Shown here in pieces: positions 22,483 to 25,151 of a DNA stretch of 41,800 nucleotides. The stretch covers positions 1 to 41,800 of the forward strand of contig JAQWJV010000003.1 in assembly GCA_029248185.1 (NCBI GenBank). The letters are read 5' to 3'. Source of the DNA: Flavobacteriaceae bacterium (GTDB lineage Bacteria > Bacteroidota > Bacteroidia > Flavobacteriales > Flavobacteriaceae). Both the position numbers and the translations under genes were made by a program. Within the stretch, counting starts at the first letter, position 1. Each line of letters opens with the position of its first letter. Below the pieces are notes generated by a model. The model searched no databases. It saw only the letters and a list, made by a program, of their open reading frames with translations, and was not told the DNA's origin.

Positions 22483-23009
22483 TGCGAATTATTTCAGGCA
22501 CGCACAAAGGACGCAGGATTTCAGCTCCAAAAAACTTACCCGTTCGCCCCACAACAGATCGATCTAAGGAAGGTCTGTTCAACATCCTCCAACATCGTAT
22601 GGATTTTGACTCCTTGACCGTTTTGGATCTTTTTTCAGGAACGGGAAACATTAGTTATGAATTTGCCTCTCGCGGAGCTTCAAAAATTATTGCAGTCGAT
22701 CAAAACCGTCATTGTGTCCATTTTATTCAAAAGACAGCAACTACTCTTGAATTAGATATTAGCGTTTTACAAAGTGAAACGATTACTTTTCTAGACAAAG
22801 ACACAGCCTCGTACACCCTTATTTTTGCTGATCCACCCTATGACTGGGAAGCTGAAGCCTATTTACAGCTCCTAGAACGTGCCAAAAAGCGCTTGGATGC
22901 TTCTGGAATCATCATCTTTGAGCATAGTAATTTTATCGATCTCTCCATGGGAGAAGGATTTGATTTTTCAAGAAACTACGGAGGAAGTGTATTTTCCTTT
23001 TTTGAATAA
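22482..23009 (+). CDS. rsmD: 16S rRNA (guanine-N2)-methyltransferase RsmD
   Basis: A class I SAM-dependent methyltransferase that modifies G966 of 16S rRNA in E. coli. The N-terminal MRIISGTHKGRRI and RPTTDRSKEGLFNIL are typical, the SAM loop is LDLFSGTGNISYEFASRGA, and the catalytic DPPY motif is FADPPYD. Length 175 is normal. The start overlaps the DUF3822 stop by one base. The 3' end converges on rnpB: the A run complementary to the rnpB terminal T tract begins within the rsmD stop codon. Confidence 0.95.
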   Translation: MRIISGTHKGRRISAPKNLPVRPTTDRSKEGLFNILQHRMDFDSLTVLDLFSGTGNISYEFASRGASKIIAVDQNRHCVHFIQKTATTLELDISVLQSETITFLDKDTASYTLIFADPPYDWEAEAYLQLLERAKKRLDASGIIIFEHSNFIDLSMGEGFDFSRNYGGSVFSFFE

Positions 23010-23014
23010 AAAAA

Positions 23015-23303
23015 GCAGGCCGATAAGCCGGATTCTGTCGAGTCTTATCATTTATCTGGATGTAAAATTACTCTTACATTCTAGCCGCCTACCCTTCTAC
23101 ATTGAACGATCTACTCTTAATTGTAGATATACTTGGCGTTGCACCGCATAGAGTTTACCTGATTTCACTACAGCCGAACTGTACTTGCTTTCTGTTGCAC
23201 TGGTCCGCTTCTTTCAAAGGGCGGGCGTTACCCGCTATGCTGCTCTGTGGTGTCCGGACTTTCCTCTCTTTTCTTACGAAAAGAGCGATAAGATGGCCTG
23301 CGG
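23015..23303 (-). ncRNA. rnpB: RNase P RNA (bacterial type A)
   Basis: The catalytic RNA of RNase P, which trims tRNA 5' leaders. On the minus strand the conserved block GAGGAAAGTCCGGACACC lies at 23266-23249. A perfect P3-like hairpin spans 23285-23266, GGGTAACGCCCGCC follows, and the 3' block has ACAGAATCCGGCTTAT (about 23038-23023). P1 is formed by GCAGGCC (23301-23295) with GGCCTGC (23021-23015). A T run follows the 3' end. About 289 bases makes it compact compared with E. coli (377). A -7 box directly upstream fits the predicted 5' end. Confidence 0.95.
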
Positions 23304-23305
23304 GT

Positions 23306-23391: not shown

Positions 23392-24468
23392 ATGGAAGCG
23401 TTTGTTGTATCGGCTTTAAAATACAGACCCAGTACTTTTGAGGAAGTAGTGGGTCAAGAAAGTATTACCAAAACCTTACAAAATAGCCTGGTAACCAACC
23501 AATTAGCGCAAGCGCTGCTTTTTTGTGGCCCCAGAGGTGTGGGGAAAACCTCCTGTGCTCGAATCTTAGCAAAACAAATCAATAGTACCACCACCGCTGA
23601 AGATGGAGATTATTCCTTCAATATTTTTGAACTGGATGCTGCTTCCAATAATTCTGTGGAAGATATCAGAAAGATCAATGAGCAGGTTCGGATTCCACCG
23701 CAAGTAGGAACCCATAAAATTTACATCATTGATGAGGCACACATGCTCTCTACAGCCGCTTTTAATGCCTTCCTGAAAACATTGGAAGAACCGCCCAAGC
23801 ATGTCATTTTTATTTTAGCCACTACCGAAAAAAACAAAATCATTCCCACGGTGCTCTCCCGTTGTCAAGTCTATGATTTTAAACGTATTTCTATACTGGA
23901 CATTCAAAAATATTTGGCCAAAATTGCCGCAGACCGAGGCTTGGCTTTTGAAGAAAATGCCTTGTACCTTATAGCACAAAAAGCAGAAGGTGCTCTACGA
24001 GATGCCCTTTCCATTTTTGATCGTATGGTGAGTTTTACCCAAGGAAATTTGACCGCAACCGCTGTGGCTGACAATTTGAATGTACTCGATCATCAAACCT
24101 ATGCAGATCTTGGAACTCTTATTTTTAAAAATGACATCCCTGGAATTTTAACAGCCTATGATGGCTTGCTACAGAGAGGAATTGACAGCTTGCAGTTTGT
24201 GAGTGGACTGGGAGATCATTTTCGTAATTTAATGTTGGCTAAAGACCCTAAAACCTTAAGTTTAATGGAGGTTGGAAGCAGTATTAAAGAAGCTTATACT
24301 TCAGCAACCTCTTCCCTAGCCCCTGACTATCTCCTCGATGCTATTTCCTTAGTCAACAACTGTGAAATAGGCTATAAAAACTGTAAAAACAGACGGGTAC
24401 ATGTAGAGCTATGTCTCATGCAACTTGCTTCGCTCCATTTCAATGGAGAAAAAAAAAAGGCTACATAA
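23392..24468 (+). CDS. dnaX: DNA polymerase III gamma/tau subunit, zero-frame (gamma-like) product
   Basis: DnaX is the ATPase of the clamp loader. Walker A GPRGVGKT is at 46-53, Walker B/DEAH IIDEAH at 112-117, sensor 1 ATTEK near 143, and the SRC arginine finger at 156-158. Domain III (collar) ends around 350. The zinc-binding cysteine cluster between Walker A and Walker B in E. coli is absent. The frame ends with GEKKKAT and TAA at 24466-24468, immediately after a run of ten A (24449-24458). The 358-residue product has domains I-III only, like E. coli gamma. The rest of a normal dnaX lies in the -1 frame downstream. Confidence 0.93.
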   Translation: MEAFVVSALKYRPSTFEEVVGQESITKTLQNSLVTNQLAQALLFCGPRGVGKTSCARILAKQINSTTTAEDGDYSFNIFELDAASNNSVEDIRKINEQVRIPPQVGTHKIYIIDEAHMLSTAAFNAFLKTLEEPPKHVIFILATTEKNKIIPTVLSRCQVYDFKRISILDIQKYLAKIAADRGLAFEENALYLIAQKAEGALRDALSIFDRMVSFTQGNLTATAVADNLNVLDHQTYADLGTLIFKNDIPGILTAYDGLLQRGIDSLQFVSGLGDHFRNLMLAKDPKTLSLMEVGSSIKEAYTSATSSLAPDYLLDAISLVNNCEIGYKNCKNRRVHVELCLMQLASLHFNGEKKKAT

Positions 24469-24477
24469 TCCCAGCCT
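24433..24477 (+). promoter_or_regulatory. Candidate dnaX recoding signal: hairpin, A10 run and A AAA AAG heptamer
   Basis: Zero-frame codons across the site read GAA AAA AAA AAG GCT ACA TAA. The heptamer A AAA AAG (24453-24459) is in the correct phase for a -1 slip, the same heptamer used by E. coli dnaX. CTCCATT and AATGGAG (24433-24439, 24442-24448) form a perfect inverted repeat ending exactly where the A run starts; it also supplies a GGAG. A 5-bp downstream stem (AGGCT 24458-24462, AGCCT 24473-24477) is weak. Function is inferred. Confidence 0.6.
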
Positions 24478-25151
24478 CGGAGTATAAAAACAAACCGCTT
24501 TCAAAACAAGTAATACCAATTCCCAAACCGCCAATTAAAAAAGAGGAAACTGCTATCGCTCCAGAAATTCACCCCCCAGCCCTTTTGGAAACCCCGCAGA
24601 GAGAAACAAGTACAGGCCTGCCCGCACAAACTGAAGAGAAAGCCAAAGTTGAAGAACCCGAACAAGAGTATATCCCAACGAAACCCGCTGCGACTCAAGT
24701 TTCAGGCTTTTCACTCTCAAGTATTGCCTTAAAAAAAGCTGCCAAAGAGAAAAGTCAACCCAAAGTAATAGAAACCGACTTACCGGAAGACCCTTTTGAA
24801 CTCAGCCAAGTAGAAGTGCTTTGGAACCAATACATAGAGGCCTTGAAAAAGGAAGGGAAAAGCAATATTGCTTCAATTTTGAGTATGAATACGGTAGGGT
24901 TGAACTCAGGATTTGAACTCAGTTTTACTGTTGCCAATAAAATGAATCGTGAAGAAATGTCACGAGAAATGGAGCATCTGCTCCCCTTTTTACGCAATGC
25001 CTTAAACAACCAAAGTCTCTCCATCGCCCTTGAAATCAGTGAAACTACAAAAGAAGATTCTGTATATTCTCCCAATGAAAAATACCAGCACTTACTCAAA
25101 ATAAATCCCAGCTTAGAAGACCTCAGAACGACATTCGATTTGGATTTTTAG
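24459..25151 (+). CDS. dnaX: dnaX C-terminal (tau-specific) portion in the -1 frame
   Basis: After a -1 shift at the A run the reading continues GGC TAC ATA ATC, giving GEKKK-GYIIPAS. This resembles the continuous sequence I recall at the same place in other flavobacterial DnaX proteins. The 230 codons encode a proline/glutamate/lysine-rich linker and a folded C-terminal region (DPFELSQVEVLWNQYIEALKKEG, HLLPFLRNALNN), ending DLDF. The full recoded protein would be about 586 residues, a normal length. No internal stop or further shift is seen. An ATG at 24411 exists in this frame, but the codons before the A run are domain III read out of frame, so a separate gene is unlikely. Confidence 0.8.
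   Translation, partial: GYIIPASEYKNKPLSKQVIPIPKPPIKKEETAIAPEIHPPALLETPQRETSTGLPAQTEEKAKVEEPEQEYIPTKPAATQVSGFSLSSIALKKAAKEKSQPKVIETDLPEDPFELSQVEVLWNQYIEALKKEGKSNIASILSMNTVGLNSGFELSFTVANKMNREEMSREMEHLLPFLRNALNNQSLSIALEISETTKEDSVYSPNEKYQHLLKINPSLEDLRTTFDLDF

Follow-up and report, generated by a model that had tools for sequence, protein, structure and literature searches.

The dnaX gene of the Flavobacteriaceae genome studied here (assembly GCA_029248185.1) is split across two reading frames at a run of ten A residues, which raises the question of whether the gene is broken or whether full-length tau is produced by recoding and, if so, at which step. Automatic annotation can be expected to flag many such dnaX genes as broken, despite the central place of tau in the replisome. 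The sequence analysed, referred to here as the window, comprises the first 41,800 nt of contig JAQWJV010000003.1, and all dnaX features described below lie on its plus strand.

The dnaX locus and its reading frames

The zero-frame ORF of dnaX starts at the ATG at 23392 and occupies positions 23392–24468. Its 358 codons encode the predicted gamma product (358 aa), which matches positions 1–370 of the NCBIfam gamma/tau profile PRK14971 (E 4e-161). Profile matches place the AAA+ clamp-loader ATPase module, the lid and domain III (PF13177, PF22608, PF12169, TIGR02397) within this ORF, and the break thus falls right after domain III, as the original prediction had proposed. The site reads GGA GAA AAA AAA AAG GCT ACA TAA, and direct reading bore out both the A10 run at 24449–24458, where relatives have at least nine A residues at the corresponding site, and the zero-frame stop of gamma, a TAA at 24466–24468 that lies two codons past AAG and is the third codon after the run. 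The heptamer A_AAA_AAG (24453–24459) is indeed in phase with the zero frame, and could also be used by −1 ribosomal slip.

From the run onwards, the −1 frame is open for 230 codons (24459–25151, with its stop at 25149–25151). The earlier assignment of this stretch to the tau linker and C-terminal domain was confirmed by the similarity of its product to the C-terminal part of PRK14971 (positions 416–612 of 614, E 9e-23). The +1 frame is shut by a TAA at 24485–24487, the ninth codon after the run, and the two frames that do not encode tau therefore end at codons 3 and 9. The gamma stop is itself formed inside the ATA-ATC codons (24465–24470) of an I-I-P motif in the −1 frame. Upstream of the run, the −1 frame contains an ATG (24411–24413) that is not conserved in the genus. 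The genome contains two other dnaX-like genes, of 31–34% identity over part of the query only, and no second full dnaX was found in the assembly, a draft of 53 contigs that is 89% complete.

An AlphaFold2 model of the tau C-terminal part, built from an alignment of 34, predicted a folded domain at 24786–25148, with nine of 12 ten-residue blocks above pLDDT 90 and block means above that value over residues 111–190. The domain is probably KH-like. The best Foldseek matches were chains of a SirA–DnaA domain I complex (4tps, E 8e-3), followed lower down by DciA (8a3v, E 0.17), all of them weak (8e-3 to 0.26, none below 0.001); judging by its length, the matched 4tps chain would be DnaA. The KH fold is described as common to DciA, DnaA domain I and DnaX domain V (PMC9912922). 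There was no DnaX chain among the best 50 Foldseek matches listed, and a profile search of the PDB with the C-terminal alignment returned no DnaX chain; its two matches, both weak, were to a plant Ras-related protein.

The gene for RNase P RNA (class A; 23008–23304, minus strand) is divergent from dnaX and lies ~90 bases upstream of it. An Rfam scan of the window at gathering scores yielded this RNA and one tRNA, and nothing else.

Conservation of the run and the frame break

The genus set comprised 38 genomes, including that of the window. The dnaX N-terminus is complete in 32 of them, one has a cut copy of the gene, and the remaining five yielded only distant paralogues. The A10 run, the frame break and tau in the −1 frame (the arrangement we call reversed) were found in 23 of the 32. 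The reversed congeners read GGA (GAA in one) GAA AAA AAA AAG, have a run of exactly ten A residues in every case (23/23), and reach a zero-frame stop three or eight codons after it. The alignment of this site across related genomes, which had been proposed as a check, shows both the run and the break conserved in these 23 congeners, and supports the prediction that the long subunit needs recoding. A break shared by 23 species-level genomes of the genus is neither a sequencing error nor a private mutation, which refutes what the original prediction had put forward as the main alternative. We conclude that the dnaX break in the window is real and kept.

The remaining nine congeners are continuous, with tau in frame 0, and each keeps at least ten A residues. 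Relatives that were all continuous and had no long A run, the pattern named beforehand as evidence against recoding, were therefore not seen. Continuity is reached through A11 in one genome (L021), A10 followed by C in another (L014) and A10 followed by T in seven. The −1 frame of these nine genes stops one to nine codons after the run, so that a slip there would give gamma, which is the classical arrangement. Two close species, L020 (A10, tau in −1) and L021 (A11, tau in frame 0), show a flip that goes with one extra A.

We extended the survey to the family (384 of 397 genomes matched) and read genes from the best matches listed. After the removal of two truncated genes (L151 and L159), the cut copy (L035) and eight loci repeating genomes already included, and outside a related genus, g21, that is considered below, 121 flavobacterial dnaX genes were available: the 32 congeneric genes, two sets of 25 and 58 from elsewhere in the family, and six added. 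A run of 9–14 A residues stands at the site in 120 of these 121 genes, and is A10 in 100. By comparison, the N-terminal dnaX bodies of these 120 genes, 126,432 bases in all, contain a single run of at least nine A residues, a rarity which argues that the run at the slip site is not there by chance. The run is kept although it requires GAA and AAA, whose shares of the Glu and Lys codons in the rest of these genes are 75% and 79%, respectively.

Among the 120 run-bearing genes, tau lies in frame 0 in 74, in −1 in 40 and in +1 in six; these are not population frequencies, because genes with an open frame <420 aa were all taken from the matches listed, whereas the continuous ones were sampled in part. 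The six +1 genes (L052, L144, L146, L150, L156 and L158) follow runs of A10–A14, and L144 and L146 are neighbours in the tree. Both non-tau frames are shut within ten codons in 111 of 120 genes, against an expected fraction of 0.40 obtained by sliding along the same C-terminal regions, and within five codons in 75 of 120 (0.15 expected). One or both of these frames stay open beyond ten codons in the other nine genes, and all 120 genes have both closed within 19. In these stop tests, as in the codon tests below, genes are counted as independent and kinship is ignored.

A conserved I-I-P motif follows the run within 14 codons in 82 of 120 genes. Its first Ile is encoded by ATA in 74 of the 82, whereas ATA makes up 25% of the Ile codons in the rest of these genes (binomial p 3e-35, without correction for relatedness), and the bias is found across all three tau polarities. 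ATA followed by AT creates a TAA in the frame that is +1 relative to tau, and it is this TAA that ends gamma in the window.

At the level of the class, 380 of 395 genomes matched, and the site was read in the best 30 loci. All 30 carry A9–A11, with tau in frame 0 in 19 and in −1 in 11. A cultured relative, Fulvivirga sp. M361 (L078), likewise has a reversed gene, with A10 and tau in −1. In a tree of the N-terminal part, the fewest changes needed were 17 with four states and 15 when genes were scored as continuous or broken, three of the latter within the genus. Well-supported branches force at least eight state changes, a count in which five Cyclobacteriaceae rows, themselves reversed, and L166 were scored as unbroken; 57 of the 140 inner branches are weak.

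Three genes depart from the general pattern. L166 is continuous and has no A run, the only such gene of the 121; its tree neighbour L181 has A9, and the loss of the run in L166 is possibly a loss of gamma production. The Cyclobacteriaceae MAG L082 has only A7, with an open −1 frame. In the Bacteroidales MAG L079 the C-terminus lies in another frame and there is no run, perhaps owing to an assembly error.

Probable transcriptional slippage and its alternatives

The conservation of the run and of the stops in the off frames led us to consider it likely that the A10 run of dnaX is a programmed slippage site giving both gamma and tau, and that RNA polymerase is most probably what slips. RNA polymerase would add or drop A residues at the run and so generate mRNAs in more than one downstream frame. 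Translation of messages in which the run is unchanged, or altered by multiples of three, would end at the TAA at 24466 and yield gamma (358 aa), whilst those that open the −1 frame, for example by one additional A, would yield tau, in which approximately 356 N-terminal residues are joined to the linker and C-terminal domain (230 residues). Provided that slippage at the run is frequent and stops come early in the other frames, it would matter little which frame of the DNA holds tau, and this apparent near-indifference would account for the repeated flips in polarity. We infer that the slip takes place at transcription and yields tau and gamma in some ratio, and that the clamp loader would use both products.

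The original prediction cited both the E. coli heptamer and the Thermus run as precedents, and the comparative data favour the Thermus-like route, because tau may lie in frame 0, −1 or +1 among relatives while the run and the off-frame stops stay. The dnaX gene of Thermus thermophilus, in which slippage occurs on A9, resembles that of the window in having a run of at least nine, nearby stops in the other frames and two products, and differs in that the Thermus tau lies in the zero frame and that of the window in −1 (PMC1088944, PMC5009743). The Escherichia coli gene shares the in-phase A_AAA_AAG and the production of gamma and tau from one gene. In E. coli, however, slipping produces gamma and is stimulated by an SD sequence and a 3′ stem-loop (PMC3711429, PMC5009743), and an excess of hairpins is absent from the reversed genes here. 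The mxiE gene of Shigella flexneri is comparable in that the long product needs transcriptional slippage (PMC1088944), but it is an unrelated gene with a U run in the mRNA.

The best-surviving alternative is that −1 programmed ribosomal frameshifting at A_AAA_AAG makes tau, using the E. coli slip site with the roles reversed, which we regard as rather unlikely. The heptamer is in phase in the window, all 40 genes with tau in −1 contain a zero-phase A_AAA_AAN, and a G directly follows the run in 35 of them (23/23 congeners and 12/17 others) versus 17 of 74 frame-0 genes. Two tRNA-Lys genes were found in the genome, both with anticodon UUU, and ribosomal slipping in E. coli is associated with having a UUU tRNA-Lys alone (PMC5009743, section 21). 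The six genes with tau in +1, however, cannot arise from a −1 ribosomal slip, and 120 of 121 genes keep a longer run than the heptamer would require. Folding tests of the sequence after the run revealed no excess of hairpins in the 23 reversed congeners (mean z −0.39 and −0.42, with four and three genes below −2), and the corresponding 67 nt of the window fold with an MFE of −1.6. The nine continuous congeners showed some folding excess (mean z −0.88 and −0.94; 4/9 below −2 over the longer stretch).

A GGAG adjoins the run in 22 of 23 reversed congeners, and also in 48 of 65 frame-0 genes outside the genus. In the window it ends only 4 nt before the heptamer, a spacing shorter than that between SD sequence and heptamer in E. 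coli. SD sequences are, moreover, reported not to be recognised by the ribosomes of Bacteroidia (PMC9976891), which is a further point against ribosomal frameshifting as the source of tau. In view of the G after the run, the heptamer, the UUU tRNA-Lys, the GGAG and the folding excess in the continuous congeners, part of the slippage could nevertheless be ribosomal.

Under a second alternative, the tau C-terminal part would be a separate protein started at ATG 24411, the result of gene fission, and there would be no full-length tau. This ATG is present in the −1 ORF of the window, so the window alone cannot exclude separate initiation, and g21 has a conserved ATG there and no run. Most relatives do exclude it: no ATG, GTG or TTG precedes the run in the −1 frame of 21 of the 23 reversed congeners, and in 17 of the 23 a stop one or two codons ahead of the run closes that frame. 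Only the window and one other congener have an upstream start, which is lacking in L004, the closest relative of the window. A −1 frame that is so often closed or start-less ahead of the run means that the shift must take place at the run. Codon changes agree, as codons −10 to −3 of the reversed congeners are constrained in frame 0 (pair sums, synonymous : other, 632 : 22) and not in frame −1 (0 : 878). Taken together, these observations render separate initiation in the window's gene very improbable.

Outside the genus, 16 of 23 reversed genes lack an upstream start in the tau frame, and those with one are L039 and the six +1 genes. Among the reversed genes read at class level, none of 11 has such a start. 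In four of the +1 genes an ATG stands just before the run, but the same ATG is common in the other polarities (54 of 74 frame-0 genes and 35 of 40 −1 genes), which indicates that it follows from the coded peptide.

A homopolymer error or a recent strain-specific mutation is hardly credible: the assembly is a draft of many contigs and congener L021 has A11 and a continuous frame, but the same A10 and break recur in 23 species-level assemblies that diverge around the site, and similar breaks occur in other genera and families. Long homopolymers mutate, and the difference between L020 and L021, which are close on the tree, might suggest a phase-variable switch in which replication slippage at A10 toggles tau in the population, yet this is just as far-fetched given the exact length of ten in all 23 reversed congeners, the conserved off-frame stops and codon choice, and the harm that loss of tau should do to replication. 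The 33 overlapping A10 hits in the genome represent 26 runs including that of dnaX, and no second dnaX-like case was seen in 21 of the 25 others, read in 20 stretches, for which frames only were compared (the four near contig starts being excluded). Where A10 runs lie inside long stop-to-stop frames, they are mostly no more than ~80 bases from the frame end, the clearest exception being L280 (~150 bases).

Reported two-ORF dnaX genes and a related genus without the run

Antonov et al. (2013) reported 17 two-ORF dnaX genes in which tau needs recoding, nine of them with A10 (PMC3711429), and two-ORF dnaX genes are also mentioned by Atkins et al. (2016) (PMC5009743). As in the window, the 2013 genes have a zero-frame ORF followed by the tau C-terminus in −1 at a poly-A run, and transcriptional realignment was inferred there (PMC3711429). 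The window gene shares the defining features of this type, with the zero frame closing shortly past poly-A where domain III ends, a DnaX-homologous tau part in −1 and conservation in relatives, and it joins the reversed A10 dnaX genes already reported. The reversal of roles relative to E. coli and Thermus that the original prediction described therefore holds for this gene, although it is not without precedent. Unlike the present survey, the 2013 set as presented there is restricted to −1 cases in 12 genera, with no polarity flips, +1 cases or run loss described (PMC3711429). Tau in +1, recurrent flips, the codon signature and a run-less genus were not found in the literature searched on dnaX recoding, slippage and splitting. 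Titles and abstract openings in that literature likewise gave no further reports of reversed or split dnaX beyond PMC3711429 and PMC5009743.

The run-less genus g21 belongs to the same well-supported clade of 62 rows as the genus of the window. Its dnaX was found in 18 of 22 genomes (L036, L038 and L203–L218), and all 18 genes break at codon 353–354 with no run of nine or more A residues. In each of them the −1 frame has an ATG 13 codons before the stop, which requires a Leu codon ending in A (38% of Leu codons there). The −1 peptide PFRG, at codons −5 to −2, hardly varies among the genes (R in 17, W in one), in contrast to the frame-0 residues. Synonymous : other changes (pair sums) over the last six codons were 130 : 223 in frame 0 and 208 : 79 in frame −1, while those over codons −20 to −6 were 440 : 115 and 0 : 672, respectively. 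Constraint on the −1 frame thus begins ahead of the old slip site, yet does not reach back to the ATG.

Of the explanations for this pattern in g21, initiation of a separate product at the ATG, whose first stretch would be free to vary, appears the likeliest, the rival reading being a shift near codon −6 at an unrecognised site; caution is advised because, within 120 codons, a further two off-frame ATGs show conservation (15 or 16 of the 18 genes). Gene fission of dnaX in g21 is accordingly described here as probable. We lean, at somewhat better than an even chance, towards a combined reading. In the Bacteroidia, dnaX would be indifferent to frame, with the run and the off-frame stops selected and the polarity drifting (about 15 changes, at least eight well supported), and in g21 (18/18) the gene would be split into gamma (353–354 aa) and a separately started tau C-terminal protein (201–234 aa) from the overlapping ATG, with no full-length tau. 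If split, g21 would show programmed slippage giving way to fission of a replication gene, and whether an untethered tau C-terminal domain works.

The need for both gamma and tau has long been debated in E. coli (PMC5009743, section 21), and this lineage represents a natural experiment on whether both are wanted. In g21, which is one clade, ATA encodes the first Ile of the I-I-P motif in one of 15 cases, although ATA accounts for 26% of Ile codons in the dnaX N-termini of that genus. The ATA bias therefore goes with the presence of the run, and this pattern in the sequences suggests that both gamma and tau are wanted where the run is kept.
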